From positions 1,728,001 through 1,792,000 of the forward strand of contig ATWD01000001.1 of the NCBI GenBank assembly GCA_000421065.1: 64,000 nt of DNA, given 5' to 3'. Below the pieces are notes generated by a model. The model did no database searches, was not told where the DNA came from, and saw only the letters and a program-made list of their open reading frames with translations. Position numbers and translations under genes: made by a program. This document shows, piece after piece, positions 33,492 through 52,521 of this stretch (position 1 is the first letter of the stretch; each line of letters starts with the position of its first letter). The DNA is from Acidobacteriaceae bacterium TAA 166 (lineage in GTDB: Bacteria > Acidobacteriota > Terriglobia > Terriglobales > Acidobacteriaceae).

Positions 33492-35912
33492 CTACAGCCT
33501 CATTTTGCGCAGTCGCAAAGAGTTCACGATTACCGAGACCGAGCTGAAGCTCATAGCAGCTGCGGCAATCATGGGGTTCAAGAGCAGGCCAAACACCGAA
33601 AAAAGAACACCAGCGGCTATCGGGACGCCCAGCGCGTTATAAATGAAAGCGAAGAAGAGGTTCTGCCGGATATTTCTCATCGTGAATTGGCTCAAGCGCC
33701 GGGCGCGAAGAATACCCCGCAGATCGCCGGTGAGCAGGGTGATCCCTCCGGCTTCCATCGCCACGTCCGTTCCTGTTCCCATGGCGATGCCCATGTTCGC
33801 CTGGGCGAGTGCAGGAGCATCGTTGACGCCATCCCCGGCCATCGCGACAACTTCTCCCTTTGCTTGATGGGCCTTGACCACCTCGGCTTTTTGCTGCGGA
33901 AGTACATCCGCTTCGAACTCGATGCCGAGCTTCGTCGCGACTGTCTGAGCTGTGGTGGCATTGTCGCCGGTGACCATGATGATGCGCAGCCCGGCCGCTT
34001 TCAACTCCCGAACGGCTTCGGCGGTGGAGTCCTTGATTGGATCGGATACGCCGACCAATCCAGCCGCTTGACCATCTACTGCTACGAGCATCACCGTCTG
34101 TCCGTCGCGCCGCAGAGCATCCGCTCGGTCAACCAGTTGCGAAGAATCTATCCCCAGTTGCTGGAGGAGACCGGCATTCCCCACGGCGACTCGTCTGCCC
34201 CCGATCATGCCTTGAACACCTTTCCCTGTGGTGGATGCGAAGCCTTGCACGTCCGAGAGCGCCAACTTTTTCACGCTCGCTCCCTTCACGATCGCAGCGG
34301 CCAAAGGATGTTCACTAGCCCGCTCCAGGCTCGCCACAAGCTGCAACAGCACTTCTTCGGTGATATCACCGAAAGGAATGACCGCGGAGAGTGTTGGCTT
34401 GCCCTCGGTGAGCGTTCCGGTCTTGTCCACGATGAGGGTGTTGACCTTGCCGAACGTCTCAAGTGCCTCAGCATTCCGAATGAGGATTCCAGCGCCGGCT
34501 CCTCGTCCAGTCGCGACCATGATTGCCATGGGAGTTGCCAGGCCGAGTGCACAGGGGCAAGCGACGATCAGAACGGCTACAGCATTGACGAGAGCATGTG
34601 CGAAACGAGGCTGAGGACCGACGAAATACCAGACCACGAAGGTTGCAATCGCAGCGACGATCACGGCAGGAACAAAGAACGACGAGACGCGGTCAGCAAG
34701 CCGCTGAATAGGCGCGCGGCTGCGTTGCGCCTGACTCACCATCTTTACGATCTGGGAAAGCAACGTGTCTGCACCAACGCGCTCGGCCCGCATGACAAGG
34801 CTTCCGGTGCCGTTCACGGTTCCACCAATCACTTTGGCGTCCTTGTCCTTTTCAACAGGGATTGGCTCACCACTCACCATGGATTCATCGACGGAACTAT
34901 GTCCTTCAATCACGGTGCCATCTACCGGAACCTTTTCTCCCGGCCGCACCCTCAGGCGATCTCCAACCTGGACCTGATCGAGTGGTACATCGCTTTCGGC
35001 ACCTTGCGGGTCGATACGACGGGCATTTCGCGGGGCAAGGCCCAACAGCGCTCGAATGGCGCTGCCTGTCTTGCTGCGCGCACGGAGTTCCATCACTTGC
35101 CCCAGCAACACCAGCGCGATAATGACAACCGAAGGCTCGAAATAGAGTGCGATGCCACCTGCTTGCTCGCGAAACGACGGAGGAAAAGCATTTGGCAGGA
35201 TTGTGGCGACCGCGCTGTAGAGATAAGCGGCTCCTGTACCGAGCGCAATGAGTGTAAACATGTTGAGGCTGCGATTCACTACGGACTGCCAGCCACGCTG
35301 AAAGAACGGCCATCCGCACCACAGGATGACGGGGGTCGCTAAGGCGAATTGAATCCAACCTAAGGTCGTGTACGGAACGAGATGCTGCAGTGGCATTGCC
35401 GGAGTCAGGTCCGAGACCATCAGCGCCAGGAACGGCACTGCCAGCACGACGCTGATCCAGAATCGTCTGGTCATGTCGTCAAGTTCGGGATTTGTTTCCT
35501 CGGCTGTGATTTCACGCGGCTCCAGGGTCATACCGCAGATCGGGCAGTTGCCCGGCGCTGAGCGAACGATCTGAGGATGCATGGGGCAGGTGTACTCGGT
35601 GCGGATGGTTGGCGCGGATTGAGTCTCCGGTTCGAGCGCCATGCCGCACTTCGGACAACTGCCAGGCCCGACCTGACGTACATCGGTGTCCATCGGGCAA
35701 ATGTATGTTTCACCGTCTTTGCCGGTCTGCGGCGTCTTCCTTCCAGACTGCAAATAGGCTTGAGGATTGGCTGCAAATTTGGCTGCGCAGGAACGATTGC
35801 AGAAGTAGTAGACCGCGCCGTTATATTCCTGCTGACTTACCGCATCGTGCGGCTCGATCATCATGCCGCATACGGGGTCTCTCACTTCCTTAACTGCCAG
35901 TTCGTCAACCAT
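33492..35912 (-). CDS. Copper-transporting P1B-type ATPase with N-terminal YHS and heavy-metal-binding domains
   Basis: The 806-residue inner-membrane pump exports metal using ATP. The N terminus has a YHS domain (about 10-54; C15, C38, C42) and two short heavy-metal-binding modules ([15 protein letters not shown], 70-95; [17 protein letters not shown], 107-132). Eight helices follow, with the metal-site CPC in [14 protein letters not shown], the phosphorylated [15 protein letters not shown]-like VSGEP, MVTGDN and [10 protein letters not shown]. The CPC and the YHS/HMBD set fit copper or silver export (CopA/CopB/SilP). AAGGAG five bases before the ATG at 35912 fixes the start. It ends the minus-strand metal cluster. 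Confidence 0.94.
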
Positions 35913-35935
35913 TCCCACTCCTTGCGTTCGAAGCG

Positions 35936-36194: not shown

Positions 36195-36773
36195 TTACAC
36201 ATGGCGTTTACAGGAGCAATCTAGACATTTGTGGTCAGCGCAGCTACCGCAAACCTGAATGAGTTTCTTTGCAGCGGCCCGGCGCGCCCGGTGCAGCCGT
36301 ACTGAGGCGTTATTCGCAGTGGTGCCTTCCGCCTTCGCAAAGTCGGTGATCGACTGGCCCCCCAAATCGATCTGTTCCAGGGCGGAGCGGTAACTGGGGC
36401 TTAGCGCTTGCACCACCCCTGCAATGCAGGTGCAGAGGTTGGCCTGCAGCTCGGTCTCATAGCTTTCGGGCGTCTCGGCCATGAGTCCGTCGTGCGCCCG
36501 CCCACGGGCGGACTCTCTTCGATAATGGTCGGTCAAGGCATTGCGAAGGACGCGGTAGAACCACGCCACAACACTTTCCGATTTATTGATCTGTCCCCCC
36601 TTTTCCAGCATTCGCGTGTAAGCGGTTTGGAGGATATCTTCAGCGGTAGCGGAATCCGCAACTCTCGCGGCTAGAAACGCCAGAAACTGAGCGCGGTGCG
36701 CCAAAAGCTCAGCGAGCAGCGCGTTATCTGAACTTACAGATGGGTCTGGAGCGCTCGCGTGAACTGTCATCAT
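36195..36773 (-). CDS. CorE-like ECF sigma factor with C-terminal Cys-rich domain
   Basis: The 192-residue protein is a group IV sigma factor: region 2 in LAFLAARVADSATAEDILQTAYTRML and VAWFYRVLRNALTDHYRRESARGR; region 4 in VVQALSPSYRSALEQIDLGGQSITDFAKAEGTTANNASVRLHRARRAAAKKL. After region 4 comes a tail with C175, C178, C183, C186 and C188. ECF sigmas of the CorE type carry such a tail that binds copper or other metals and turns the sigma on without an anti-sigma. No anti-sigma gene is adjacent, and copper genes surround it, which supports that role. Confidence 0.85.
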   Translation of the reverse strand: MMTVHASAPDPSVSSDNALLAELLAHRAQFLAFLAARVADSATAEDILQTAYTRMLEKGGQINKSESVVAWFYRVLRNALTDHYRRESARGRAHDGLMAETPESYETELQANLCTCIAGVVQALSPSYRSALEQIDLGGQSITDFAKAEGTTANNASVRLHRARRAAAKKLIQVCGSCADHKCLDCSCKRHV

Positions 36774-37977: not shown

Positions 37978-38595
37978 TTAGTGGTGCGTGTGCGGGGTCA
38001 TCGACGGCATGGACGGCTTGCCGCCGTTTAGAAACTGTTCTTCTTCCATCTCTTCCTGCATCTCCCGGGGAGACTTCGGGTTGAGCTTCTCCATCTCCAT
38101 CTGCTCCCGATCCGTAAGCGTTGGCAGATGACGGATGAAAACAACGAGCTTCCAGCTATCGATGTCATCGTCTCCGGCGTCGCCGAACGCGGGCATGCCG
38201 GTGAGGCGGACCCCGTTCTGGATGATGGAATACAACTCGCCATCGGAGAGGTTTTGCGTTCTGTCCCTGCGCATGTCCGGTGGTCGCGGGTACATGGCCT
38301 TGCCGTACATCGTGTCGCCACTGCCATTATTCGCGTGGCAGGTAGCGCAATGATCTGCCCAATGCTCCATCCCTTCCCGTATGACTTCCGGCGTCGCCGT
38401 TACAGGATTCTTCATGCTCTTGTAGCGAGCAGGAATCGCCATGCTTCGCGCCGACGTGGCGAGGGCTGCTTCCATTGCGCCGGGTTCCTCGCGCGTGCTG
38501 AAGCCACGCCGGATGACCCGATAGGCGTATATGCCTATCCCTGCCACGACAAGAAGGACAATCAACGTGACTACACGCCATGCCGAACGTTTCAT
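37978..38595 (-). CDS. Monoheme cytochrome c, membrane anchored
   Basis: A 205-residue class I cytochrome c. One N-terminal helix (about 7-27) anchors it, and the periplasmic domain holds one heme motif CATCH (in HWADHCATCHANNGSGD) with the distal methionine in RLTGMPAFGD. The C terminus ends in a Met/His-rich SMPSMTPHTHH, suggesting metal contact. Such cytochromes accept electrons in the periplasm; here a natural partner would be the multicopper oxidase. AAGGAGGGCAGT precedes the ATG at 38595. It sits 10 nt after the TolC-like gene in the operon. Confidence 0.9.
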   Translation of the reverse strand: MKRSAWRVVTLIVLLVVAGIGIYAYRVIRRGFSTREEPGAMEAALATSARSMAIPARYKSMKNPVTATPEVIREGMEHWADHCATCHANNGSGDTMYGKAMYPRPPDMRRDRTQNLSDGELYSIIQNGVRLTGMPAFGDAGDDDIDSWKLVVFIRHLPTLTDREQMEMEKLNPKSPREMQEEMEEEQFLNGGKPSMPSMTPHTHH

Positions 38596-38605
38596 ACTGC
38601 CCTCC

Positions 38606-40102
38606 TTATTGATCGGAACCAGCGCTACTCCCGCCGTTGTAGGAACTGAGAGAACGTCCCACAGGAGCGGAGGGTGCGGACAATCCATCCGATAAGCCAA
38701 AGCTTTGGATTTGCAGGGCGTTCATCCACACGGTTTCGAGGGAGCGAATGTAATCGGCCTGGAGTTGAAAAAGTGTCCGCTGCGCAATCAACACCTGGGG
38801 ATAGGCCGCCGCCATGTTCTGATAGTTGCCGCTGTACAGTTCGTAGGCCTTCTGTGCGCGGGGCAACATGCTGGTCCGGTAACGATCTGCCGTCATGTTG
38901 GCAACCGTGTAATCGCGAAAGAGCGTGCTGACCTGTCTTCGCAGTTCGAGTTGCTGCCGTTGCAACTCCGCCTGGCTGCGCTCCAGCTGCGCCTTGGCCT
39001 TTTGAATGTTCCCCTGATTGTGGTTGAAGATCGGCAATTGAACGCCAACCTGAGCGCCGCTCACAATGCCGGTCCGGGCGTTTGCTGTTTCCAGCGGTTC
39101 GTTGTCCTGCGACAGGTTCGCGCTGATCTGGAGATCGGGAATCGGAACCTTCTTTGCCTCGCGTAAGGCCGCCTGAGCGCGGTCAACGTCTTGCTGTGCA
39201 TACTTCACCTGGGGGCTGTCGCTGAGCATCTTTGCGAGCCATTCCTGCTGGTCCAGATGAGGGACATCCTCAAGGTTTCCCTCAACGCGGCCAAGCGGAA
39301 GCGCCGGATTGCCCACCGTAACCGCCAAGGTCTGCCACAGCGTCTGGTAGTTCTGCTTCGCGGTCTGCAAGGCAAGCTCTGCTTGTTCTGCTTCCACCTC
39401 GGCCTGCAGCACATCGGGACGATCTGCCTGGCCGACATTCCCAAGCTGGTGGGCTGTCTGAACCGCATCGCCAGCGAGGTTTAGAAGTTGACGGCGAACC
39501 TGCACGAGCCGTTGCGCCGCCAACACCTGGTAGTAGAGGCTCCGAACGTTGTTGAGCACCTTATAGCGCTGTGCATCGACATTCGTGACGGCTTGCAACC
39601 GCTCTTGTTCCGCGGTTTGTTTCGCCGCTCCGAGCTTGCCGCCTAGAACAATCGTTTGGTTGATGAACGCTCCCTCCTTGCCGGATTGGAACGACCCGCC
39701 ACGAATCTCATCGCCGTAATAACCGACGGTCGGATTCGGATAGAGTCCCGCTTGCTTTCTTGCGGCTTCGGCTGCCCGAACATCTGCATTGGCCTGCGAG
39801 AATGTTGGGTTATGGCTGAGTGCCATCTGCTCCAAGTCCTCCAGCTTCACAACAGTGCCGGATGGCAGGTCTTGCTGATACTCTTTGGTGTCCATCGCAG
39901 CGTCATGCGGGTGCTGCATACGGTCCATGGGCATGCCCTGCATTTGCGGCTGTTGCGGATGGGCATTCGGATCTTGACCTGATGGCATCTGCATTCCCGG
40001 CATATCCTGCATGTTGCTCTGCTGCGCTCGTCCCGCTGCGGCCAGGGAGCAAAGCATGACTGCGACAGCGAACTGTTCGAGTGTTTGTCTGTTACGCGCC
40101 AT
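38606..40102 (-). CDS. TolC-family outer-membrane efflux protein (CusC-like)
   Basis: The 498-residue product has a signal peptide (about 1-26, ending GRAQQ), a Met/His/Gln-rich insert at about 28-66 (MQDMPGMQMP, MQGMPMDRMQHPHDAAM), and two TolC repeats of long coiled helices (for example 80-110, 205-270, 310-345, 355-440). Conserved items are LSHNPTFSQANADVRAAEAARKQAGLYPNP and GVQLPIFNHNQGNIQKAKAQLE. The Met-rich insert is unlike ordinary TolC and suits Cu(I) export. No CusA/CusB genes lie next to it, so its inner-membrane partner is not visible here. Start overlaps the multicopper oxidase end by 11 nt. Confidence 0.9.
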   Translation of the reverse strand: MARNRQTLEQFAVAVMLCSLAAAGRAQQSNMQDMPGMQMPSGQDPNAHPQQPQMQGMPMDRMQHPHDAAMDTKEYQQDLPSGTVVKLEDLEQMALSHNPTFSQANADVRAAEAARKQAGLYPNPTVGYYGDEIRGGSFQSGKEGAFINQTIVLGGKLGAAKQTAEQERLQAVTNVDAQRYKVLNNVRSLYYQVLAAQRLVQVRRQLLNLAGDAVQTAHQLGNVGQADRPDVLQAEVEAEQAELALQTAKQNYQTLWQTLAVTVGNPALPLGRVEGNLEDVPHLDQQEWLAKMLSDSPQVKYAQQDVDRAQAALREAKKVPIPDLQISANLSQDNEPLETANARTGIVSGAQVGVQLPIFNHNQGNIQKAKAQLERSQAELQRQQLELRRQVSTLFRDYTVANMTADRYRTSMLPRAQKAYELYSGNYQNMAAAYPQVLIAQRTLFQLQADYIRSLETVWMNALQIQSFGLSDGLSAPSAPVGRSLSSYNGGSSAGSDQ

Positions 40103-41534
40103 GGTCTCCTCCCATCCCCGGCATCTTCTCCATCGGTTGTTTCTTCTTGAGTTCGAGAAAGTGTTCGTATTGATCGGGAGGAAGGACGCGGACGAGGGTC
40201 ATCATGCCGCCCATGAATCCGCTCCAGCCTTCTGGGAGGCCGAAGGTCTCAGGCTTCGCAACCATCTTGTCCATGGCCATCATGGGGCCTTCCATGAAGG
40301 CGTCCTGGGGGAAGCCCGGAACGTGATTTGCATCCTGAGCGACGTCTGCCATCTGTCCGTTACCCATATCCATATCTGGCATGTTGGACATTGCCTTGCT
40401 ATGAGAAAGCGGTCCATTGGAGGTTGGATTGTCAGCCGTCGAACCTACGCCGAGAGCTCGCCCGAGACTTGGCCCTCGATTGTCTGAGGTTGCATTCCCG
40501 GAGCCGGTGAGCATGCCCATGCCGGCTTCCATATCCTCCCCAGCGCTCATGCCGTGCCCGAGACGAGTCATCTTGCCCACGGTGGAAGACATCTGGTTCA
40601 TCATGTGATGGGGCAGATGGCAATGCAGCATCCATGAGCCGGGTGTATTGGCAACAAATTCAATGTCCTGCGCCTGCGCCACTCCTACGAGTGCCGTGTT
40701 TCGCCGCATCCACTGCGATTCCGGTAGACGCCAGCCTTCATTGCCTGTAGTCCAGAAGGTGAATCCGTGGAGATGGATCGGGTGGTGATCCATCCCGAGA
40801 TTGATCATGCGGATGCGAACCCGGTCTCCCTGCCGCACGACGAGCGGAGTCGCAGCCGGGCCAACTTTGCCGTTAAAGGTGAGCCAGTTGAACTCCATAT
40901 TCATCGTGTTCGGGACGTTGTTATTCGGCAGTACCGCGTACTCCTGCAGGATGACGACATGGTCGGAGGCCACGGCAGGGGCGTAGGGTTCTTTCGGGTG
41001 CATGATGAATGCCCCGATCATCCCAAGCATCTCTTGCATTGCCATGTGGGAGTGATAGAAGAAGGTCCCGTGCTGATGGAGCATGAACTCATAGACGAAG
41101 CGGCCTCCAGGCGGCACAGGCTTCTGACCGATGCCGGGAACTCCGTCCATCGCTTCCGGGATTTCAAAGCCATGCCAGTGCATGGAGGTGGGTTCGGGGA
41201 GATGGTTGTCGAAAACGATCCGCACGCGGTCGCCTTCGTTCACCTGGATCGTTGGCCCCGGCGCGCTGCCGTTGTAGCCCCAAAGGTCGAGGGTTCTGCC
41301 GGGAAGGATTTCCTGCTTGACCGGCTCGGCGATCAGGTTGAAAACCTTCACGCCATTATCCATGGTGAATGGCAGATTGGGGATGTCCGGTGTGTTCACA
41401 GGAATGGAAGTTCCTGACGACATGCCTTTCATCCCGGGCATGTTTGCGGCCCGTTCCGCAAAGAGTCTTGGCGCGGCGGACAGCCCGGCACCCAGCGCGA
41501 ATGCGCTTTGAAGAAAAGTACGTCTGTTACTCAT
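40092..41534 (-). CDS. Multicopper oxidase (Tat-exported, CopA/CueO-like)
   Basis: A 480-residue laccase-type multicopper oxidase. The Tat signal is SNRRTFLQSAFALGAGLSA. Copper ligands: HWH (119-121), HSH (161-163), HPIHLH (251-256) and HCHLPHH (304-310) with C305, H310 and probable axial M315 of the type 1 site. A Met-rich patch at 32-39 and a Met/Gly/Asn-rich tail (about 330-480, MSAGEDMEAGMGMLTGSG) suggest Cu(I) oxidation in the periplasm. The frame is open further upstream but the Tat signal fixes the ATG at 41534. It overlaps the TolC-like gene downstream. Confidence 0.94.
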   Translation of the reverse strand: MSNRRTFLQSAFALGAGLSAAPRLFAERAANMPGMKGMSSGTSIPVNTPDIPNLPFTMDNGVKVFNLIAEPVKQEILPGRTLDLWGYNGSAPGPTIQVNEGDRVRIVFDNHLPEPTSMHWHGFEIPEAMDGVPGIGQKPVPPGGRFVYEFMLHQHGTFFYHSHMAMQEMLGMIGAFIMHPKEPYAPAVASDHVVILQEYAVLPNNNVPNTMNMEFNWLTFNGKVGPAATPLVVRQGDRVRIRMINLGMDHHPIHLHGFTFWTTGNEGWRLPESQWMRRNTALVGVAQAQDIEFVANTPGSWMLHCHLPHHMMNQMSSTVGKMTRLGHGMSAGEDMEAGMGMLTGSGNATSDNRGPSLGRALGVGSTADNPTSNGPLSHSKAMSNMPDMDMGNGQMADVAQDANHVPGFPQDAFMEGPMMAMDKMVAKPETFGLPEGWSGFMGGMMTLVRVLPPDQYEHFLELKKKQPMEKMPGMGGDHGA

Positions 41535-41660
41535 GGAATCCTCATTCGTCGGTGAAGCACGACAGCTTGCGAGAAGCCGCTGGCTTGCCGAGATACGCCA
41601 GAAAAGGCGCGCCTGGGCAAAGCCGGGCAACGTATCAGGACGCAGCTATGCGATGAGGAT

Positions 41661-42092
41661 TTAGATACGCAGTATGGTGGGGGTTCGGTACGTTCGCGGA
41701 GGCGGCCTTGAGCCGAGTCCAATGGATACGGTCGTAGTCACTGGAACCGGAGCAGGAACAGCGATATGTGATGCAACTGCTACGAGTTCGTGACCGAACG
41801 ACTTCTTGCCATCGACCCAGTTGGAATCAATGCTGCACGGTGATTTGCAGGCCGAGGAAACGTACGACTCCGCATGAGCTGTGTTCTGCGAGGCCATCGG
41901 CATAGCCTGCATCTCCTCGTCGGACATGCCGGGCATATCCATTGATCTGGATGCGGTCTTGCCACCCGAATCGCCCATCATCTGGTGATGGTGGTGAGGC
42001 ATGCTGCACTTGAGATCGCACGCCATCCCCATCGTGCTCACGGAAATGAGCAGGGCAAGCAGGAACGGGATGAATGTCGAGCGCAGCTTCAT
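41661..42092 (-). CDS. Periplasmic Met/His/Cys-rich protein of unknown function
   Basis: Not a recognised family. The 143-residue protein has a signal peptide (about 1-25, LLALLISVSTMGMACD), followed by CDLKCSMPHHHHQMM, a Met-rich stretch (SMDMPGMSDEEMQAMPM), and a pair C83/C87 in SSACKSPCS. The composition points to periplasmic copper binding, and the place in the cluster agrees. The C-terminal 60 residues are proline- and valine-rich without motif. A perfect CRP box with a TAnnnT -10 lies just upstream, which makes this gene the likely first gene of the transcript that includes the multicopper oxidase. Confidence 0.72.
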   Translation of the reverse strand: MKLRSTFIPFLLALLISVSTMGMACDLKCSMPHHHHQMMGDSGGKTASRSMDMPGMSDEEMQAMPMASQNTAHAESYVSSACKSPCSIDSNWVDGKKSFGHELVAVASHIAVPAPVPVTTTVSIGLGSRPPPRTYRTPTILRI

Positions 42093-42205: not shown

Positions 42206-43003
42206 TCAGTGCATCTTGAACCAGCCCAGGCCTTTGATGTCATTCCAGGAGTTTGTCTGATGACACTTGAAGCATTCGCCGAGCTTGGCGTCCTTCTGGC
42301 CTGTCATCCCCTGATCCATCATGGTGAAGTGGCCCATCAGATGGCTTGGCGGTGGCTTATGGCACTCGTTGCAGAGCGTCGAACGTGGCGAAGGGTGTTG
42401 ATAGCCTGCCACCGTCCAGGTAGTTGTGGCGTGGCACTGAACGCAGTCGGTGCCGAAGTAGCCAAAATGGGGATCTTGGTTGGAGTGGCAGGAAGCGCAG
42501 TTCAAAGATGCTTCCTTGGCACTGGCATGGGGATAGACAGAGTTCTTATGACCAGGCTGGGAAAGAACGCCCAACCACACCCTTAGCTTGTGCTCAGCTT
42601 CCTGGTCGCCCGACGCACCGCGCCTCAATTGTTTGAGGCTGATCGTACTGAAGACCTCATGGTCCATCGTCGCTGGCCGTGCCGCCAGCCCCTGATGCTC
42701 GATATGGCACGAACTGCAAGTTCCGACATTGGCGTGAAACGCAGTGGGTTGGCGTTGCAGCAATTCCGCGTTATTCGCATGACACGCGATGCATTTCGTC
42801 GCCGAGACCCCGGTGACAGACGTGTGACATGCAGCGCAATTGTTCTCCAGAGAGGCGTGACCGCTCGAAAGCTGCCCAGGCTCGACCCACCGCTGCCAGC
42901 CGATCTGGTTCGTTGCAGAGTGCGGCCCAAACATCACGTACAGGATCGCAACCGATGCGACGGTTGCGAGGACTGTGATGATGCCGGTGACGGTCTTGTT
43001 CAT
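42206..43003 (-). CDS. Seven-heme membrane-anchored cytochrome c (cytochrome c3/c7-like)
   Basis: A 265-residue multiheme cytochrome with one N-terminal anchor helix (about 7-27) and the rest periplasmic. Seven CxxCH motifs are present: CAACH, CIACH, CSSCH, CASCH, CVQCH, CNECH and CFKCH. Histidine-rich spacers (HIEHQG, HPSPRS, HLMGHFTMMD) offer distal ligands. The layout recalls NapC/NrfB/cytochrome c7-type electron conduits. The ATG overlaps the stop of the membrane cytochrome b-like gene (ATGA), so the two are translated together, and both follow an FAD/2Fe-2S reductase gene. Confidence 0.9.
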   Translation of the reverse strand: MNKTVTGIITVLATVASVAILYVMFGPHSATNQIGWQRWVEPGQLSSGHASLENNCAACHTSVTGVSATKCIACHANNAELLQRQPTAFHANVGTCSSCHIEHQGLAARPATMDHEVFSTISLKQLRRGASGDQEAEHKLRVWLGVLSQPGHKNSVYPHASAKEASLNCASCHSNQDPHFGYFGTDCVQCHATTTWTVAGYQHPSPRSTLCNECHKPPPSHLMGHFTMMDQGMTGQKDAKLGECFKCHQTNSWNDIKGLGWFKMH

Positions 43004-43743
43004 GCAAGCCACCGTAAGCCCAAATGAATCTCGGCCCCGATATGAAATGCAAGCAGGAGGTAGAGCAGAATGGAGAACGCGATATGCAGCTTCAGAGACC
43101 GGCTGAACCAGAGTTTCAGGAGATCATCGGTAGCAATCGCGTATTCCAGGTCCGCCACGCTTTCCGCGGTACGCATGACCTCTCCGGCGGGGCCGCTGAA
43201 CGGCAGTTCGATCCCCAACGACGCGAGCCCGGCTGTCATGACTGGCGTCTTAGGAAGTCCCCTCAGTTGAGCGGGGGAGTTTTCGAGCACTCCCCAAGCG
43301 CTGTCGAGGTCGCCTCTGGCCGTCTGAAGCAGAATCAGTTTGTCTTTGATGTCCTGGTTGACATAGGTAAGCAGATAGCGAACTGCAAACCCGCTCACGA
43401 TGACCAGAAACATCAGAGCAATCAGCAGGACTCCTAATGGGCTATCGAACCTGTGTCCCGAGTGGACGACGGCCAGGACCGGACCAAAGACACCCGCGTA
43501 AACATGCCACGCCAGGAGCCGTTGCATCGAAACATGACGTGTGATGCTTGCATGCAAAAGAGGGATTCGTTTTGCGATTGGATAGAGGAGCGGGACGAGC
43601 ATGAGCACGGCGCCCGCGATCCCGAACGCTGTGCCTACCGGGCTTCCCGCGAAGCGTGGTGAGCTGTGAAAGAGAAAGCCAAGCCACGCGACAAGTAAGA
43701 CGCAGGCCGCACCGCTCACAATGATGCGTTCGCGCTCGTTCAT
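43000..43743 (-). CDS. b-type cytochrome-like membrane protein of the electron conduit
   Basis: The 247-residue protein has about five to six transmembrane helices (about 5-27, 36-58, 75-98, 103-130, 213-240). Histidines within the helices (RLLAWHVYAGVFGPVLAVVHSGH and LKLHIAFSILLYLLLAFHIGAEIHLG) form pairs suited to two b hemes, one near each face. This resembles ferric-reductase-like or NapH-like membrane domains, but no exact family name is certain. It lies 2 nt after the FAD/2Fe-2S reductase gene and overlaps the heptaheme cytochrome gene: the three make a tight set. Confidence 0.75.
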   Translation of the reverse strand: MNERERIIVSGAACVLLVAWLGFLFHSSPRFAGSPVGTAFGIAGAVLMLVPLLYPIAKRIPLLHASITRHVSMQRLLAWHVYAGVFGPVLAVVHSGHRFDSPLGVLLIALMFLVIVSGFAVRYLLTYVNQDIKDKLILLQTARGDLDSAWGVLENSPAQLRGLPKTPVMTAGLASLGIELPFSGPAGEVMRTAESVADLEYAIATDDLLKLWFSRSLKLHIAFSILLYLLLAFHIGAEIHLGLRWLA

Positions 43744-43745
43744 GG

Positions 43746-45749
43746 TTACGCAACCACCACGACATCGCTTGTCGGTTTTGCCTGGCAGGCGAGAATGATG
43801 CCGGTGGCTTTATCGTTGTCGTCAAGTGCGTCCTGCACCTCCATATCGACTTCACCGGAGGTCATCTTGACCTTGCATAGCCCGCAGGTTCCCACGCGGC
43901 AGGAGAATTCAATACCGATGCCAAGTTCTTCGGAAAGTTCGAGGATGCTCTGCCTCGGAGGACTATCTCCCACTTGAAGGTCCATGCGAACCTTGGCCGA
44001 CTTGCCGCTTTTCGAAAAAGTGACGAGAGGGCCTGTTGCGGCGGTCGATGGTTTCGCACTCGTGCCTGCCAGAGCCGGAACAGGCTTTACCGCACCGAAT
44101 GCTTCGGTCTTCAAGTGATCTGCTGGAATCCCAAGTTCGGCGAAGATCGCTTTCACGGAATCCATCATCGCTGGTGGTCCGCATAGATGACATCGCCGCG
44201 AGGCAAGGTCCGGCACCATTTGCGTAAGCCACTCCTTGGTGATGCGTCCCCGCGCTCCCTTCCAATCTGTGCCGCTCGGTCTGGACATGGTTATCAGCAG
44301 GTGCAGCTTCGGGTTGAGGCGCTGAAGTGCAGGCAGCTTGTCTGCAAAAATCACATCCGCCGGAGTGCTACAGCTATAAACGAAAAAGATATCTCCTGGC
44401 CAGGACAGTTCCGTGAGGTAGCGAGAGATGCTCATCATGGGTGTAACGCCCACACCACCGGAGAGAAGAACGATGCTGTCTGCTTCGGTTCCGGTAAAGG
44501 TGAACTTTCCCACCGGCCCTCCGCAATCGACGAGATCGCCCACTTTAAGAAGATCATCAATGTGTCGGGAGACCGCTCCGCGAGGCTCGCGACGAATGGT
44601 GAGTTCGACATATTCGCGCTCATTCGGTGAGGACGAGATGGAGTAGGAGCGGTTCATCTTCGCGCCCCCAATCCAGAACGCGACATTGAGAAACTGGCCC
44701 GGCAGGAACGTAAACGGAAGATAGCGGTCGTTGGTCGGTGAAACCAACCGGAACGTCTTCACGGTCGGCGTCTCCATCGCGATGCTCGCTACGCGAAGCT
44801 GTCCTCGCCAGTTCGCGGTGACCGGGAGAGATTGAGACGAGGACGGCGATCCTTCTGTCGCGGGCGCCGCGGGCAGCGGAATAGAGGTGGATATTTCGGT
44901 CGTGGCGGCTGCTTTCGGCTCAGTAGGCGATGACTGCGAGGAAGGGGACGCTTTCGGTCCTGAAGGTGGCGGTGACCCTCCCGGTGGGTTGGGTGGACCG
45001 TTCGACGGCGGTCCCTTGTCGGGATCGAATCTCCCGAAAAGCGCAGCCGCGCGCCGCATTTTATTGAAATACAACCAGATCATCGCAACCGCGAAGATGG
45101 TCAATGCAAGCATGATGAACCAATGGAACATCGAGAGGCCGGGCTGTGCGCCATTCTGATCGGGAAGATTGAGTTCTGTGCGGAACCAGCGCAAGGCTAC
45201 GACTTGCGGGTTTTGGTTTTCCTGTAGAGCACGTTCGGCGGCGAGACCGCTCTGAAATCCATCCATCCCTTCACGCATGTGAGCCGAGGCCGCCTGCATC
45301 GCGGGATAGTCATTCACGGCAGTCGAAGTAGCGAGCTGATCGAGACCGTGGGATAACATCTCGCTCCCTTGCGACATGCGATCTCGCGCCAGTTGTTCGA
45401 CCCGCGCGCGCTCTGCCGCAGACAGAGGCGGAAGCGCCATCAGTGCTGGGAAGATAGGGTTATTGGAAGCTGCCCCACAACAGGCGGGCTGCATCATTTT
45501 GAGCATGTCCGCGGGGCTCATCGTCATTCCGCTCGCAGGAGCAGAAGAACCCGGCGCGGATGGAGCAGCGGGAGCGCTCATGCCTGAAGGCATTCCACTC
45601 GCAGGCTGTGCCGTCTGATCTGGAGTGGGAGCTGCTGCGTGGTGACTGGCGTGTTCCTCCGGCGTCATTTGGCCCAAAGCCAACCCGCAGGCCATGGCCA
45701 GCAGAAACGCCCCGATCACCGGACTTCGATTTCTCTTCCAGACGGCCAT
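43746..45749 (-). CDS. Membrane-spanning FAD/NAD(P)H and 2Fe-2S reductase with a periplasmic Met-rich domain
   Basis: A 667-residue multi-domain protein. Residues 1-26 are a signal or anchor; 27-205 are an extracytoplasmic domain with Met/Pro/Ala-rich part, an ACCG motif (90-92) and helices; 208-228 is a transmembrane helix. After a cytoplasmic Pro/Ser linker (245-310) come an FAD-binding domain (RSYS at 367-370), an NAD(P)-binding domain (GGVGVTPMMS, 431-440; CGPPAMMD near 523) and a plant-type ferredoxin domain with C617, C622, C625 and C655. So electrons can go from NAD(P)H through FAD and 2Fe-2S toward the membrane partner encoded next. Such a covalent periplasmic domain is not usual. Confidence 0.85.
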   Translation of the reverse strand: MAVWKRNRSPVIGAFLLAMACGLALGQMTPEEHASHHAAAPTPDQTAQPASGMPSGMSAPAAPSAPGSSAPASGMTMSPADMLKMMQPACCGAASNNPIFPALMALPPLSAAERARVEQLARDRMSQGSEMLSHGLDQLATSTAVNDYPAMQAASAHMREGMDGFQSGLAAERALQENQNPQVVALRWFRTELNLPDQNGAQPGLSMFHWFIMLALTIFAVAMIWLYFNKMRRAAALFGRFDPDKGPPSNGPPNPPGGSPPPSGPKASPSSQSSPTEPKAAATTEISTSIPLPAAPATEGSPSSSQSLPVTANWRGQLRVASIAMETPTVKTFRLVSPTNDRYLPFTFLPGQFLNVAFWIGGAKMNRSYSISSSPNEREYVELTIRREPRGAVSRHIDDLLKVGDLVDCGGPVGKFTFTGTEADSIVLLSGGVGVTPMMSISRYLTELSWPGDIFFVYSCSTPADVIFADKLPALQRLNPKLHLLITMSRPSGTDWKGARGRITKEWLTQMVPDLASRRCHLCGPPAMMDSVKAIFAELGIPADHLKTEAFGAVKPVPALAGTSAKPSTAATGPLVTFSKSGKSAKVRMDLQVGDSPPRQSILELSEELGIGIEFSCRVGTCGLCKVKMTSGEVDMEVQDALDDNDKATGIILACQAKPTSDVVVVA

Positions 45750-46067
45750 TCAACGCACCTCAATCACGCGGTTCATCGTATCGAAGTCGTTCCTCACGCA
45801 GTCTCCGCATTCCTGACCAAGATCGTGGCATCCTGGGCGGCAGCACCAGACTCCATTGACTACGAATTTGTATTCGTATCTGCCCGGTGCCAAAGCGAGA
45901 GCGACTCTCCAATTGCCCTCGTCGTCGCGGGTCATGGGATTCGCTTCCGGGTTCCATGCGTTGAATGTCCCGGCGAGACAGACTGTATGCGCACCCTGGG
46001 CAAAGCAGGAGAACTCTGTCATTGGCGTCAGAGTTTGAGTCTCACCGAGGTGTTTCGTCGGCATCAT
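45750..46067 (-). CDS. CBM48/glycogen-binding-like domain protein with Cys-rich loop
   Basis: The 105-residue protein is a single early-set domain like those of AMPK-beta and glycogen-branching enzymes: CLAGTFNAWNPEANPMTRDDEGNWRVALALAPGRYEYKFVVNGVW. Family members bind alpha-glucans. The insertion after NGVW is unusual: CCRPGCHDLGQECGDC, five or six cysteines in about 16 residues, then NDFDTMNRVIEVR. The stop is directly before the ATG of the reductase gene, so the two are coupled. It could be a small metal-binding adaptor; function is unknown. No signal peptide. AGAAGG before the ATG supports the start. Confidence 0.75.
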   Translation of the reverse strand: MMPTKHLGETQTLTPMTEFSCFAQGAHTVCLAGTFNAWNPEANPMTRDDEGNWRVALALAPGRYEYKFVVNGVWCCRPGCHDLGQECGDCVRNDFDTMNRVIEVR

Positions 46068-46103: not shown

Positions 46104-47063
46104 CTACTCCATTTTCATAGGCTGTTTCGGCATCGGCGATTTCGCGGGGTTCGCAGAAGCCATGGCCTTTACCGCTACGGCGCGCTGCTCCGGCGTCAGG
46201 ACATCTGAGGCCGCAGAAACCGCATGAATGAATGCCATTTGCTGGTCTGCCCGCAATTTGGCAATCTCTTGAACCTTCATGTCGATCTCCCCAGAGTTAG
46301 GCTGGTCCGCACTGGTGAGTTTCCATAACTCCTGCTCAGCTACATCAATCTGCTTCTGTGAAGCTGTCTTGTTTCGTTTGGCGTCGGCTTTGATTCGTTC
46401 AAGCCTTAGCCTTTGATCGGACGTGAGACCGATGTGTTGAGCATGATCCAGAAAGAAATCTTTCGCGCCAACGTGCAGGACATGAGGTGCATCGGCAGCT
46501 CTTGACGCGGACATGGAGCTATTACTCTTGGATGGCATACCGCCGCCCATCTTGTCGTCTGCCATGCCACCCATGTTCGGCATCGGTTTGCCCATGCTCA
46601 TCCCGCAACAGCCCGGCGCGGACATGGGCGCTGCGGAATCGCTTTTCATCGATCCGTCCGAAGAGGGCATGGAGCCCATTTCGTCCATATCATCCTTCAT
46701 CGGAGACATCGGCGCTTTCATGCCGCTGGAAGACATACCGCCCATTTCGCTAGAGTCGTCGTCCATCCCCATTGCTGGCTTAGCGCCGGACATCGAGCTT
46801 TTTGCCGAGCCGGATTTACTGGCCCTGCTTTGCTGTAATGCGGCCTGCAAACGGGCGACCTGGCGTTTCAGTTGATTGATCTGAGCTTGCGTATCCTGCG
46901 CCTGAGTCGATGCATCGGCCTGTGTCTGCGGTTGAGCTGGTTCGGAGGATGGCATAGCCATCTGCGCTCCGGCTCGGGCAGAGTTCAACAACATCGCAGA
47001 GGCTAATAGCATCACGGTTATCGAGGCGGTTGTTTTCCTCTTACTGTGGTTCGTCATGTCCAT
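46104..47063 (-). CDS. Periplasmic Spy/CpxP-like protein with long Met-rich segment
   Basis: The 319-residue protein has an N-terminal hydrophobic signal (about 14-34), a coiled-coil region at about 55-85 (AQINQLKRQVARLQAALQQ), a long segment of Met, Ser, Gly and Asp (about 85-190, including PGCCGMSM), and a C-terminal helical domain from about 195 with DHAQHIGLTSDQRLRLERIKADAKRN and DVLTPEQRAVAVKAM. The last two LTxxQ-type turns mark the Spy/CpxP/heavy-metal-sensor fold. The Met-rich part would bind Cu(I). GAGGAACGAT precedes the ATG. The CCG motif also occurs in the neighbour reductase. Confidence 0.8.
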   Translation of the reverse strand: MDMTNHSKRKTTASITVMLLASAMLLNSARAGAQMAMPSSEPAQPQTQADASTQAQDTQAQINQLKRQVARLQAALQQSRASKSGSAKSSMSGAKPAMGMDDDSSEMGGMSSSGMKAPMSPMKDDMDEMGSMPSSDGSMKSDSAAPMSAPGCCGMSMGKPMPNMGGMADDKMGGGMPSKSNSSMSASRAADAPHVLHVGAKDFFLDHAQHIGLTSDQRLRLERIKADAKRNKTASQKQIDVAEQELWKLTSADQPNSGEIDMKVQEIAKLRADQQMAFIHAVSAASDVLTPEQRAVAVKAMASANPAKSPMPKQPMKME

Positions 47064-49396: not shown

Positions 49397-50575
49397 ATGT
49401 CATCAAATCACGAAAAAACCAACATTGTGATCATTGGAGCAGGCGCTTCGGGGCTGACCTTGGCAACATTCCTACACAAGTCCGGGATCCCCTGCGTGGT
49501 CTTGGAGAAGCGCAATCGCTCTTACATTGAAGTCCGGCAGCGTGCCGGCGTCGTCGAGGCACGCGGTGTTCGCATGTTCGAGCGGTGGGGCTTGGCAGAC
49601 AAGCTGCTGGGCGGTCCGGTAGCTGCGACGATTGAATATCGCCTGAATGGCGTCGGTCGCGTATTCGAGATTGCAGGCGATCACGGCAGCCCGAGCCGGT
49701 TCTGCACACAGCAGATGCTCGTCAACAATCTTCTGCGAGAGTTGATCGACTCCATGGGTGGAGATGTTCGGTTCGACGTAGACAGCATCACGATTCAAAA
49801 TGAGGAGGGGCAGCGCCCAAACGTCAGCTACACAGACGCGAACGGGGCGCATGAACTCACCTGCGACTACGTTGTCGGATGTGACGCCGACCACGGCGTC
49901 AGCCGAACATCGATTCCGGATGGCGTCCTCACCAGATACAGTCATGAATTTGGATATGCGTGGCTCGCCGTGCTCGTTGAAGCGCCGGTTAAGGGGCATC
50001 CCATTATGGCCGTGAGCGATCGCGGCTTTGCTGCGCAACTGCCTCGAGGCCCTCAAAGGAGCCGATACTACCTGCAGTGCGCGCTCAGCGACACCGCCGA
50101 AGACTGGCCGGACGAGCGTATATGGAACGAGATCCGGTTGCGAACGGGCGACCAAGCCCTCGTCAATGTCCAGGTGCATGACAAATTCTTTGTCCCTCTA
50201 CGCAGCGTCGTCTATGAGCCGATGCAATATCGAAACCTGTTCCTCGCAGGTGATGCCGCGCACCTTGTGCCCCCTACCGGCGCTAAGGGAATGAACCTTG
50301 CCCTACACGATGTCGATGTTCTCGCTCAGGGATTTGTTAGGGCAATAGCGGAAGGGGATACGACGGAACTCCTACGCTATTCCGAAACCTGCTTGCCTGA
50401 TCTCTGGAAGTACCAGGAATTCAGTGTGTGGATGACCGATACGATGCACGATGCCGGCAATGCGAGACAACACGGTGTCTTTCGGCAAAGGACGGCGCGC
50501 GCACGCCTGGATGCACTTTTCAGTTCTCCAGCAGCAGGTCAACTTCACGGTGACTACTTGCGAGGAACCGTCTGA
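49397..50575 (+). CDS. pobA: 4-hydroxybenzoate 3-monooxygenase
   Basis: A 392-residue class A flavin monooxygenase, the length of PobA. It holds GAGASGLTLATFL (FAD), RQRAGVVEARGVRMFERWGL, VGCDADHGVSRTSIP (the DG-type motif with the PobA-specific order), RSRYYLQCALSDTAEDWPDERIW and LFLAGDAAHLVPPTGAKGMNLALHDV. The RSRYYLQ segment aligns with the substrate-contact Ser212/Arg214/Arg220/Tyr222 region of Pseudomonas PobA. It turns 4-hydroxybenzoate to protocatechuate with NADPH and oxygen. Ring-cleavage genes are not in the window. GAGGAAACGGAC precedes the ATG. Confidence 0.88.
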   Translation: MSSNHEKTNIVIIGAGASGLTLATFLHKSGIPCVVLEKRNRSYIEVRQRAGVVEARGVRMFERWGLADKLLGGPVAATIEYRLNGVGRVFEIAGDHGSPSRFCTQQMLVNNLLRELIDSMGGDVRFDVDSITIQNEEGQRPNVSYTDANGAHELTCDYVVGCDADHGVSRTSIPDGVLTRYSHEFGYAWLAVLVEAPVKGHPIMAVSDRGFAAQLPRGPQRSRYYLQCALSDTAEDWPDERIWNEIRLRTGDQALVNVQVHDKFFVPLRSVVYEPMQYRNLFLAGDAAHLVPPTGAKGMNLALHDVDVLAQGFVRAIAEGDTTELLRYSETCLPDLWKYQEFSVWMTDTMHDAGNARQHGVFRQRTARARLDALFSSPAAGQLHGDYLRGTV

Positions 50576-51349: not shown

Positions 51350-51378
51350 TTGACACAAATGGAATGCCATTCCACAAT
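51350..51378 (+). promoter_or_regulatory. Promoter of the TetX-like gene
   Basis: TTGACA (51350-51355), a 17-bp spacer, then CACAAT (51373-51378). The predicted start, seven bases on, is at 51385, the A of an in-frame ATG, so the mRNA may have no leader. The first half of the palindrome lies in the spacer. Confidence 0.55.
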
Positions 51379-51396
51379 CATGGAATGGCATTCCAT
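51359..51396. promoter_or_regulatory. Nested 38-bp palindromic operator between TetR and TetX-like genes
   Basis: ATGGAATGCCATTCCA (51359-51374), spacer CAATCA, then the exact reverse complement (51381-51396). Each 16-nt arm is nearly self-palindromic (GGAATGCCATTCC and GGAATGGCATTCC), so the site has two overlapping symmetric boxes 21 bp apart. It covers the spacer of the rightward promoter and the monooxygenase start codon, so the divergent TetR protein is very likely its ligand. Confidence 0.75.
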
Positions 51397-52521
51397 AAAG
51401 ACGTATCGATCATTGGCGCCGGGCTGGGTGGACTTACACTTGCGCGCGTTCTGCAGGTCAATGGCATTAAAGCAACGGTCTATGAAGCGGAGGCCTCGCC
51501 CGATGTGCGTGGTCAGGGCGGTATGCTCGACATTCACGAAGCAGACGGACAGCACGCCCTTCGGGTTGCTGGCCTTTTCGAGGAGTTCCTTGCAATCATC
51601 CACCCCGGCGGTCAGGCCACACGAGTCTTAGATAAGAGCGGCAACATCCTGATCGACCAACCTGACGACGGAACCGGAGGCAGGCCCGAGGTTCCCCGTG
51701 GACACCTCCGGCGCATTCTCCTCAATTCACTTGATCCCCATACGGTTCGTTGGAACCATAAGCTCTCTGCGGTCTCTCCGCTTGGGAACGGCCAACACCG
51801 GCTTACATTCGCCCACGGCTCAGTAGGCATCTCCGACGCGCTCATCGGTGCCGACGGCGCCTGGTCGAAGGTCCGGCCGCTTGTGTCACAGGCGAATCCC
51901 GTTTATACGGGCGTGTCATATGTTGAGACGTACTTGCACGATAGCGATGCTCGCCACAAAGCCAGCGCGGAGGCAGTCGGAGGTGGCGCTTTGTTTGCAT
52001 TCGCGCCGGGCAAAGGTATTGGCGCACACCGTGAGCCCAACGGCGCCCTGCACGCTTACACACAGTTCCAGAGGCCCGTCGAATGGTTCGACACCATCGA
52101 CTTCTCTGATAAAGCTACTGCTCTTGCAAAGTTGGCCCGGGAGTTCGACGGTTGGAATTCCGCCCTTGTAGGGCTCATTACAGAGAGTGACACAGACCCA
52201 GTGCTCCGTCCCCTTTACACCCTCCCTGCGGATCACTGTTGGGAGCGAAAGCCCGGCGTGACACTCCTTGGCGACGCTGCGCACCTGATGATGCCGGCCG
52301 GAGAAGGCGCGAACCTTGCAATGTTGGACGGCGCAGAGCTCGGTGAAGCGATCGCATCCAATCCCACCGATGTGGAAGCTGCGTTCATTACCTACGAAAC
52401 CGAGTTGTTCCGCCGCAGCACTGCCAAAGCTGTTGAAGCCGAAGCGATGATCGATGTCCTGCTCGGTCCTGCCGCTCCTCAGAGCCTGCTCGACTTCTTC
52501 GGAAGTCACCTTCCAGCCTGA
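51385..52521 (+). CDS. TetX-like FAD-dependent monooxygenase
   Basis: The 378-residue flavoprotein has an FAD motif SIIGAGLGGLTLARVL, VRGQGGMLDIHEADGQ (a loop found in TetX and relatives), RGHLRRILLNSL with VRWNHKL, GADGAWSKVRPLV, and VTLLGDAAHLMMPAGEGANLAMLDGAEL. The order and the RPE-RxxLRxILLNSL stretch are close to TetX-type hydroxylases, but this family covers many substrates, so tetracycline attack cannot be claimed. An ATG at 51364 lies in frame in the palindrome; the ATG at 51385 matches the predicted transcription start. It is divergent from a TetR gene. Confidence 0.85.
   Translation: MAFHKDVSIIGAGLGGLTLARVLQVNGIKATVYEAEASPDVRGQGGMLDIHEADGQHALRVAGLFEEFLAIIHPGGQATRVLDKSGNILIDQPDDGTGGRPEVPRGHLRRILLNSLDPHTVRWNHKLSAVSPLGNGQHRLTFAHGSVGISDALIGADGAWSKVRPLVSQANPVYTGVSYVETYLHDSDARHKASAEAVGGGALFAFAPGKGIGAHREPNGALHAYTQFQRPVEWFDTIDFSDKATALAKLAREFDGWNSALVGLITESDTDPVLRPLYTLPADHCWERKPGVTLLGDAAHLMMPAGEGANLAMLDGAELGEAIASNPTDVEAAFITYETELFRRSTAKAVEAEAMIDVLLGPAAPQSLLDFFGSHLPA

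Follow-up and report, generated by a model that had tools for sequence, protein, structure and literature searches.

Copper resistance is usually told as a combination of oxidation (CueO/CopA) and efflux. The MsrPQ system of E. coli, working with Fre, consists of a cytosolic flavin reductase, a heme b membrane protein and a periplasmic acceptor, and in CbcL of Geobacter, which is quinol-linked, a diheme cytochrome b is joined to a multiheme cytochrome c. For the eukaryotic heme metalloreductases Dcytb, Steap and FRE we know of no multiheme c partner. These enzymes pass electrons from NADPH or ascorbate through membrane hemes to external Cu(II) or Fe(III), and CcoG of Rhodobacter has been proposed as a membrane-bound bacterial Cu(II) reductase that raises copper tolerance (PMC7558416; this and the other papers given by PMC number are cited from excerpts). 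MsrPQ is induced by copper and sends electrons to the periplasm under copper stress (PMC9302797), and the DUF4405, FezC and PepSY-like cytochromes hold two hemes by four central His residues in membrane helices (PMC10979944). Here we describe a set of three genes, hereafter the trio, which resembles each of these systems in part. It lies on the minus strand of a stretch of 64,000 nucleotides, hereafter the window, from the 6.1 Mb genome of Acidobacteriaceae bacterium TAA 166 (contig ATWD01000001.1), and all positions are given in window coordinates.

The trio encodes a reductase, a cytochrome b and a cytochrome c. It is a real, conserved, mobile and copper-linked gene set that appears from its sequence to form an electron conduit, for which cupric reductase is our best guess at a function. 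The initial annotation had described three overlapping or abutting, operon-like genes, and all three open reading frames (ORFs) were found to be present at 42206–45749, with gaps of +2 bases between the reductase and cytochrome b genes and of −13 bases between those of cytochromes b and c, and with the seven CXXCH motifs and b-type His pairs in place. The trio and its parts are as follows.

43746–45749, minus strand: reductase, 667 aa (Pfam, hydropathy, alignments)
45639–45653, minus strand: HxxHH motif of the reductase (H33, H36, H37), directly after the signal peptide (alignments)
45066–45122, minus strand: predicted transmembrane helix of the reductase, residues 210–228 (hydropathy, alignment A4)
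43770–44792, minus strand: cytosolic FAD_binding_6 (residues 320–417), NAD_binding_1 (428–533) and Fer2 (597–660) domains of the reductase (Pfam)
43000–43743, minus strand: membrane diheme b-type cytochrome (predicted), 247 aa (hydropathy, alignments)
42206–43012, minus strand (likely true start 43003): heptaheme cytochrome c with N-terminal anchor (Pfam, hydropathy, alignment)
42320–42352, minus strand: PPSHxMxHFxM motif of the cytochrome c, residues 221–231, copper-type specific, candidate copper site (alignment, motif search)

Three Pfam domains of the reductase scored over their cut-offs, namely FAD_binding_6 with 57.7 bits (cut-off 21.1), NAD_binding_1 with 57.8 (22) and Fer2 with 55.9 (21), which identifies it as an FNR-type reductase; no named NCBIfam equivalog was found for it (best 219.3 bits against a cut-off of 500). 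Its hydropathy profile gives a signal-like N-terminus, a Met-rich periplasmic part and a single helix at 210–228. H209, directly before this helix, is invariant in alignment A4 and M213 nearly so, and the HxxHH motif is present in 10/10 rows of A7 and in 15 of the 17 rows of A4 as annotated, or in all 17 once longer ORFs are read for two of them. Four loci have no reductase row in A4: those of L044 and L047 are in pieces, that of L002 is a split gene and that of L003 is truncated where the locus ends. The first reductase of L032, which is shortened beside an insertion sequence, was also left out. At L002, from a metagenome-assembled genome (MAG) of Gemmataceae (Planctomycetota), separate genes encode the soluble reductase and the periplasmic/helix part, an arrangement which fits the proposed topology, and the two parts are also apart in Acetobacter (L047). 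In contrast to MsrPQ, the trio has a membrane-tethered reductase with 2Fe-2S and a periplasmic domain, and a heptaheme cytochrome c on its acceptor side; no MsrP was seen in it. It also differs from CcoG, for which the excerpts of PMC7558416 describe two 4Fe-4S clusters and no heme chain, flavin or 2Fe-2S; a Fer4 domain was found in none of the three trio proteins at E ≤ 0.1.

The initial annotation had likened the periplasmic domain of the reductase to the neighbouring Spy-like protein, as a Met-rich domain containing ACCG. Its Met-rich character was borne out, with 7–19 Met before the helix in the reductases of the copper type, as the branch that includes the window's trio is called here. 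The rest of the claim did not hold, as CCG occurs in only 6 of the 17 reductases, the conserved motif being HxxHH, and kinship with Spy was dropped at an hhalign probability of 3% (a weak test on shallow alignments), leaving a likeness of composition only.

The cytochrome b has five hydrophobic helices by hydropathy. H26, H80, H94, H97, H220 and H234 are invariant in 22/22 rows of A2 (the alignments leave out L049, which is near L038, L052, which is near L048, and L050, which is broken), with H80/H94 and H220/H234 forming two H-x13-H pairs. With positive loops inside, the five helices bring one His of each pair close to the cytosol (H80, H220) and the other close to the periplasm (H94, H234). 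The plain reading is one of two stacked b hemes, with these four residues as the predicted ligands. Two His pairs on two helices, which define the diheme b-type class, were found in 25/25 copper-type proteins and in 16/16 proteins of a sister type described below, with heme binding predicted. Neither a Pfam nor an NCBIfam match, nor a credible sequence match to a solved structure, was obtained for this protein. The DUF4405-type cytochromes have six helices as against five predicted here, and the window protein fails to match the family (PF14358), to which 9 of the 22 members of A2 match weakly (best E 0.0023); a search of the window's genome with DUF4405 gave no match at E ≤ 0.001. The ferric reductase-like, MsrQ-type family PF01794 is likewise unmatched by the window protein and matched by 3/22 homologs (best E 0.0089).

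In the cytochrome c, seven CXXCH motifs are invariant in 21/21 rows of A3, from which the cytochromes c of L044 and L050 are absent. Nine additional His residues outside CXXCH are also invariant, as are M116, M226 and M231; with nine such His for seven hemes, about two would be without a heme role. The protein belongs to the cytochrome c3/c7 multiheme family by PF14537 (32.2 bits, cut-off 25) and PF14522 (26.7, cut-off 24.8), and falls far below the cut-off of the NapC/NrfH model (17.1 against 134.2 bits). The best solved-structure match of its profile was a NapC-like tetraheme cytochrome (PDB 2a3m, E 1.1e-4), over profile positions 9–111 only. As 18 of 21 homologs start at a Met matching residue 4, the listed GTG start is probably three codons early, and with the later start the overlap of the cytochrome b and c genes is 4 bases. 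Unlike CbcL, the trio has an NAD(P)H reductase encoded with it.

A chain leading from cytosolic NAD(P)H over FAD and 2Fe-2S to membrane hemes and on to periplasmic hemes had been suggested in the initial annotation; it is supported by Pfam, hydropathy and the invariant motifs, and an outward NAD(P)H-to-c-heme conduit appears well supported. From the gene set, cofactor motifs, topology signals, conservation, copper linkage and type-specific residues found in the sequences we infer complex formation, heme pairing, the direction of flow, copper as the acceptor and a benefit to the cell. The three proteins would make up one inner-membrane complex that moves electrons outward, in which NAD(P)H would reduce the FAD of the cytosolic domain of the reductase and the 2Fe-2S domain would hand single electrons to the inner b heme (H80/H220). 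From there they would pass to the outer b heme (H94/H234) and then through the periplasmic cytochrome, which is anchored, along its seven c hemes.

Beyond what the initial annotation described, the trio was observed to be one branch of a wider type of cytochrome b with multiheme cytochrome c, and to have His and Met residues specific to the copper type. The sister type is represented by eight loci of the window's phylum (L070–L077), in which a distant cytochrome b occurs with giant cytochromes of 22–53 CXXCH. Loci L070–L074 keep the order of reductase, cytochrome b and multiheme cytochrome, with 24, 40, 44, 53 and 24 CXXCH in the adjoining cytochrome, respectively. At L075–L077 the cytochrome b lies near cytochromes of 22–31 CXXCH and no reductase of the trio's kind was found, with a gene for Pyr_redox and Fer4 domains following the cytochrome b at L075. 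A related protein of 508–585 aa without a Pfam match follows the cytochromes at L074–L077; judged by its sequence, it looks like a secreted protein with an outer-membrane-barrel-like C-terminus. The sister loci possibly represent an NAD(P)H-driven extracellular electron route. The copper type forms a clade in the tree, with only moderate support (0.752; midpoint root; five bad frames included). For this tree 21 sister cytochrome b ORFs were taken, five of which look antisense by eye (L005, L010, L019, L024, L027) and were dropped from the counts; some of the 48/200 genomes matching at E ≤ 0.001 are therefore probably artefacts.

The residues H80, H94, H220 and H234 of the cytochrome b are kept by all 41 proteins compared (25 copper-type and 16 sister-type), whereas H97 is present in 25/25 of the copper type and 0/16 of the sister type, and H26 in 25/25 and 1/16, respectively. 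In the best-matching domain of seven giant sister cytochromes, H52, H106, H182 and the CXXCH His of hemes 1–5 are kept in 7/7, H93 and H206 in 5/7, H118 in 1/7 and M116 in 0/7. The region of PPSHxMxHFxM is unaligned in six of these domains and unconserved in one, and the motif itself occurs in 21/21 copper-type rows as against 0/7 sister cytochromes searched whole. The four sister reductases looked at all lack HxxHH and have 1–4 Met in their first 130 residues. At the five copper-type loci outside A2, A3 and A4 (L066–L069, L101), the cytochrome c motif, the H-x2-H of cytochrome b and the HxxHH of the reductase were all present (5/5). The features common to both types are those that carry electrons. 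Those found in the copper type only are His and Met residues on what is predicted to be the periplasmic side: H26 and H97 in cytochrome b, MxH and PPSHxMxHFxM in cytochrome c, and HxxHH with the Met-rich domain in the reductase.

Cu(II) and Cu(I) are usually bound by His and Met. As such residues are found only in the copper type's outer side, and as copper genes are its neighbours, periplasmic Cu(II) is the likeliest acceptor. It would be bound by the type-specific residues, and the resulting Cu(I) would go to recipients encoded in the same clusters, namely Met-rich proteins (the Spy-like protein and the N-domain of the reductase) as well as storage proteins and pumps for Cu(I). Storage proteins of such clusters handle Cu(I). 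A Cu(I) product would also suit the exporters, which handle Cu(I) as well (PMC7558416). An electron conduit reducing periplasmic Cu(II) to Cu(I) for storage and export is the best explanation we can offer of these sequences, held tentatively and somewhat short of being probable. No described copper system with this arrangement had been known to the initial annotation, and in the open-access literature no paper was recognised as describing the trio as a copper system among the matches listed. If this explanation is true, a widely shared, plasmid-borne, NAD(P)H-driven heme conduit would add an active reducing arm to copper islands, and it would become testable how periplasmic Cu(II) turns into the Cu(I) that is handled by pumps, storage proteins and Met-rich proteins. 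The sister type would then offer electrons a further way from the inner membrane into giant multiheme cytochromes.

A search for the same three-gene set in other genomes, which the initial annotation had advised, returned it in the same order in Gemmataceae, Bradyrhizobium, Variovorax and on plasmids. The cytochrome b and the cytochrome c each match 52 plasmid records, with identical accessions, and the N-domain of the reductase matches 30 records, 29 of them within the 52. Plasmid hosts include Sphingobium, Alteromonas, Legionella, Variovorax, Spirosoma, Methylophaga and Acetobacter. At the 21 plasmid loci fetched, BLAST located a reductase ORF or a piece of one directly before the b gene in 21/21 and the c gene directly after it in 20/21, the sole locus without it being a broken Gluconobacter copy. 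Gene order and motifs are thereby kept in the window's genome and its relatives, in the Gemmataceae MAG and on plasmids of Pseudomonadota and Bacteroidota. The trio is rare in genomes (6/396 of a phylum sample, 2/60 of a genus sample). This patchy occurrence, together with cytochrome b identities of 64–70% to Gemmataceae, Bradyrhizobium and Variovorax homologs with the same gene order, speaks for horizontal transfer. No relative of the trio was found among phage records or in two scans of viral contigs. We regard as tentative, and as less assured than Cu(II) reduction for storage and export alone, the wider picture of a mobile, plasmid-spread, heme-based cupric reductase of bacteria. In it, a general conduit from NAD(P)H to multiheme cytochromes has a copper branch, which would have gained invariant periplasmic His/Met in all three subunits and would work together with Cu(I)-specific sequestration, and a sister branch, which would feed 22–53-heme cytochromes beside a putative outer-membrane barrel.

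Two side observations concern the genes next to some of these trios. At L038, L042, L046 and L049 a gene for a small DUF1622 membrane protein shares 14 bases with the end of the cytochrome c gene in each case, and this protein is a possible fourth subunit. On the Methylophaga plasmid, a run of cytochrome c maturation genes (L034, 16751–23977) lies 3 kb downstream of the trio.

For the tally of copper neighbours, multicopper oxidase (MCO), CopB, the copper ATPase, DUF411, four-helix Csp and CopC were taken as core copper genes, in stretches of mostly 10–12 kb on each side of the trio. The reference set of copper and other proteins against which the ORFs of the loci were searched had itself been taken from the window, L002 and plasmid loci, which makes some of the hits self-matches. 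Its labels came from annotation or Pfam, except that DUF305 and Csp of L002 were assigned by eye (Pfam matches the MCO of this locus but not its Csp). At least one core copper gene was found in 25/28 copper-type loci, or 26/29 with L101 added, as against 0/7 random 20-kb stretches and 0/8 sister-type loci (8–20 kb), counts which are uncorrected for relatedness; the Fisher values calculated from them disregard relatedness as well as plasmid bias and are indicative only. The tie to copper genes made by the initial annotation was thus upheld (26/29 against 0/15 controls), and a distribution mostly outside metal clusters, which would have spoken against it, was looked for and not encountered. Non-plasmid loci weigh most here because plasmid collections favour metal plasmids; taken alone, 7/8 of them have core copper genes (the window, L002, L065, L066, L068, L069 and L101, and not L067). 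A Pfam check upheld the MCO, CopB or ATPase calls at L002, L065, L066, L068, L069 and L101, the sole core gene of L066 being a CopB fragment at the edge of the stretch (Pfam 106 bits).

Linkage on mobile plasmids can come from hitch-hiking, and the trio might then be a set of passenger genes without a copper role. The copper genes at 7/8 non-plasmid loci with different neighbours, and the type-specific invariant residues, make this very improbable. It is also improbable, to a slightly smaller degree, that the conduit reduces another metal, such as silver, gold, iron or chromate, and adjoins copper genes since islands are multi-metal. Met ligands also suit Ag(I), and resistance-nodulation-division (RND) pumps occur at several plasmid loci; RND-like matches were also obtained in 2/7 random stretches and were hence not counted as core. 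The neighbours that were tallied belong to copper-related kinds (MCO, CopB, Cu ATPase, DUF411, Csp), which speaks weakly against another metal, the genes of other metals being outside the tally.

The commonest core copper neighbour is MCO, at 17/28 loci. This would agree with a conduit whose electrons go to MCO or to some other redox partner encoded in the cluster, or are spent on mending periplasmic proteins damaged by copper (methionine sulfoxide or disulfides), in the manner of E. coli MsrPQ. The clusters also contain Met-rich proteins, and MsrPQ is copper-induced and keeps CusF active (PMC9302797). However, MCO was not found at 11/28 loci, in the plasmid annotations, which have gaps, no gene of MsrP-like or thiol reductase type was seen to recur, and the type-specific His/Met residues would be left unexplained, so a role in repair or in feeding such a partner is considered unlikely.

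NiFe-hydrogenase genes lie near the trio at L039, L048 and L067 (two Alteromonadaceae and one member of the window's phylum). Judged by gene order, the genes named orf1 and cyt in the Alteromonas hydrogenase operon are probably those of cytochromes b and c; both were reported to be dispensable for hydrogenase activity in E. coli (PMC3102683). Two papers on Alteromonas plasmids report copper genes together with hydrogenase genes on a single island or plasmid (PMC8478169, PMC4781885), the excerpts of the former being without the terms ferredoxin, reductase and heme and those of the latter without cytochrome and ferredoxin. The trio could serve as a redox valve or as a link to respiration, exchanging electrons between NAD(P)H on one side and periplasmic cytochromes, oxidases or a hydrogenase on the other, and be present on copper islands since copper poisons the normal respiratory chain, and the giant multiheme cytochromes that accompany the sister type would be in keeping with this. 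Hydrogenase was found at only 3/28 loci, however, and the copper-specific residues are also present at the hydrogenase-linked loci; we think such a link rather unlikely, a shade more so than a role in repair.

A number of points weigh against Cu(II) as the acceptor. The multicopper oxidase of the same cluster would run the reverse reaction, oxidation of Cu(I), so a futile cycle needs explaining. L032 (with Spy only), L048 (with CopD, Spy and hydrogenase) and L067 (with NiFe hydrogenase) are without a core copper gene, and with hydrogenase genes near three trios and two of these lacking core copper genes (L048 and L067), another acceptor or donor is possible. The invariant His/Met could be structural or serve as heme ligands. 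The linkage itself is drawn partly from plasmid collections, with their leaning towards metal plasmids, and 5/8 of the sister stretches are shorter than 20 kb. The structure models were of no help: that of the cytochrome b has a predicted local distance difference test (pLDDT) score of 65 and its fold search returned only generic helical bundles, and that of the cytochrome c has a pLDDT of 35, from which heme pairing is not readable.

In the window the trio stands within a minus-strand run of genes for the Spy-like protein, the CBM48 protein, the reductase, cytochrome b, cytochrome c, a small ORF, multicopper oxidase, TolC, another cytochrome c and a DUF5666 protein. The gaps between the listed ORFs are, in order, 36, 0, 2, −13, 113, 30, −11, −95 and 20 bases. 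A sigma factor and a copper ATPase follow farther along, past this run. The neighbours of the trio are as follows.

46104–47063, minus strand: Met-rich Spy-like/Metal_resist protein, first gene of the apparent operon (Pfam)
45750–46067, minus strand: small CBM48/AMPK1_CBM glycogen-binding-domain protein, abutting the reductase (Pfam)
41661–42092, minus strand: small His/Met-containing ORF, 143 aa (no match to curated families in Pfam and NCBIfam)
40092–41630, minus strand: multicopper oxidase (family models)
38606–40102, minus strand: TolC-family outer membrane efflux protein (family models)
37978–38700, minus strand: monoheme cbb3-type cytochrome c (Pfam)
36195–36773, minus strand: extracytoplasmic function (ECF) sigma factor with CorE-like Cys-rich C-terminus, CGSCADHKCLDCSC (Pfam and tail sequence)
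33492–35918, minus strand: copper-type P1B ATPase (NCBIfam)

The ECF sigma factor, which lies close to the copper ATPase, has Sigma70_r2 and Sigma70_r4_2 domains over cut-off and a Cys-rich C-terminal tail, and a homolog of it stands beside the trio at L065. Its assignment to the CorE group follows the description in PMC3107203 and not a group model; CorE is switched on by Cu(II) and off by Cu(I) (PMC3107203).

Carbohydrate genes occur near many trios, including zwf, gnd, 6-phosphogluconolactonase, glgP, isoamylase, glycogen debranching, thymidine phosphorylase and CBM48 genes. The loci in question are L032, L033, L034, L037, L041, L046, L051, L066 and L069, where a CBM48 protein is again near the trio, and in the window 45750–46067; perhaps these genes are co-carried as a supply of NAD(P)H. 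Beside the copper cluster of the window, two FAD monooxygenase-like genes with AraC- and TetR-like regulators were identified by eye from the translations at 49397–50575 and 51364–52521.

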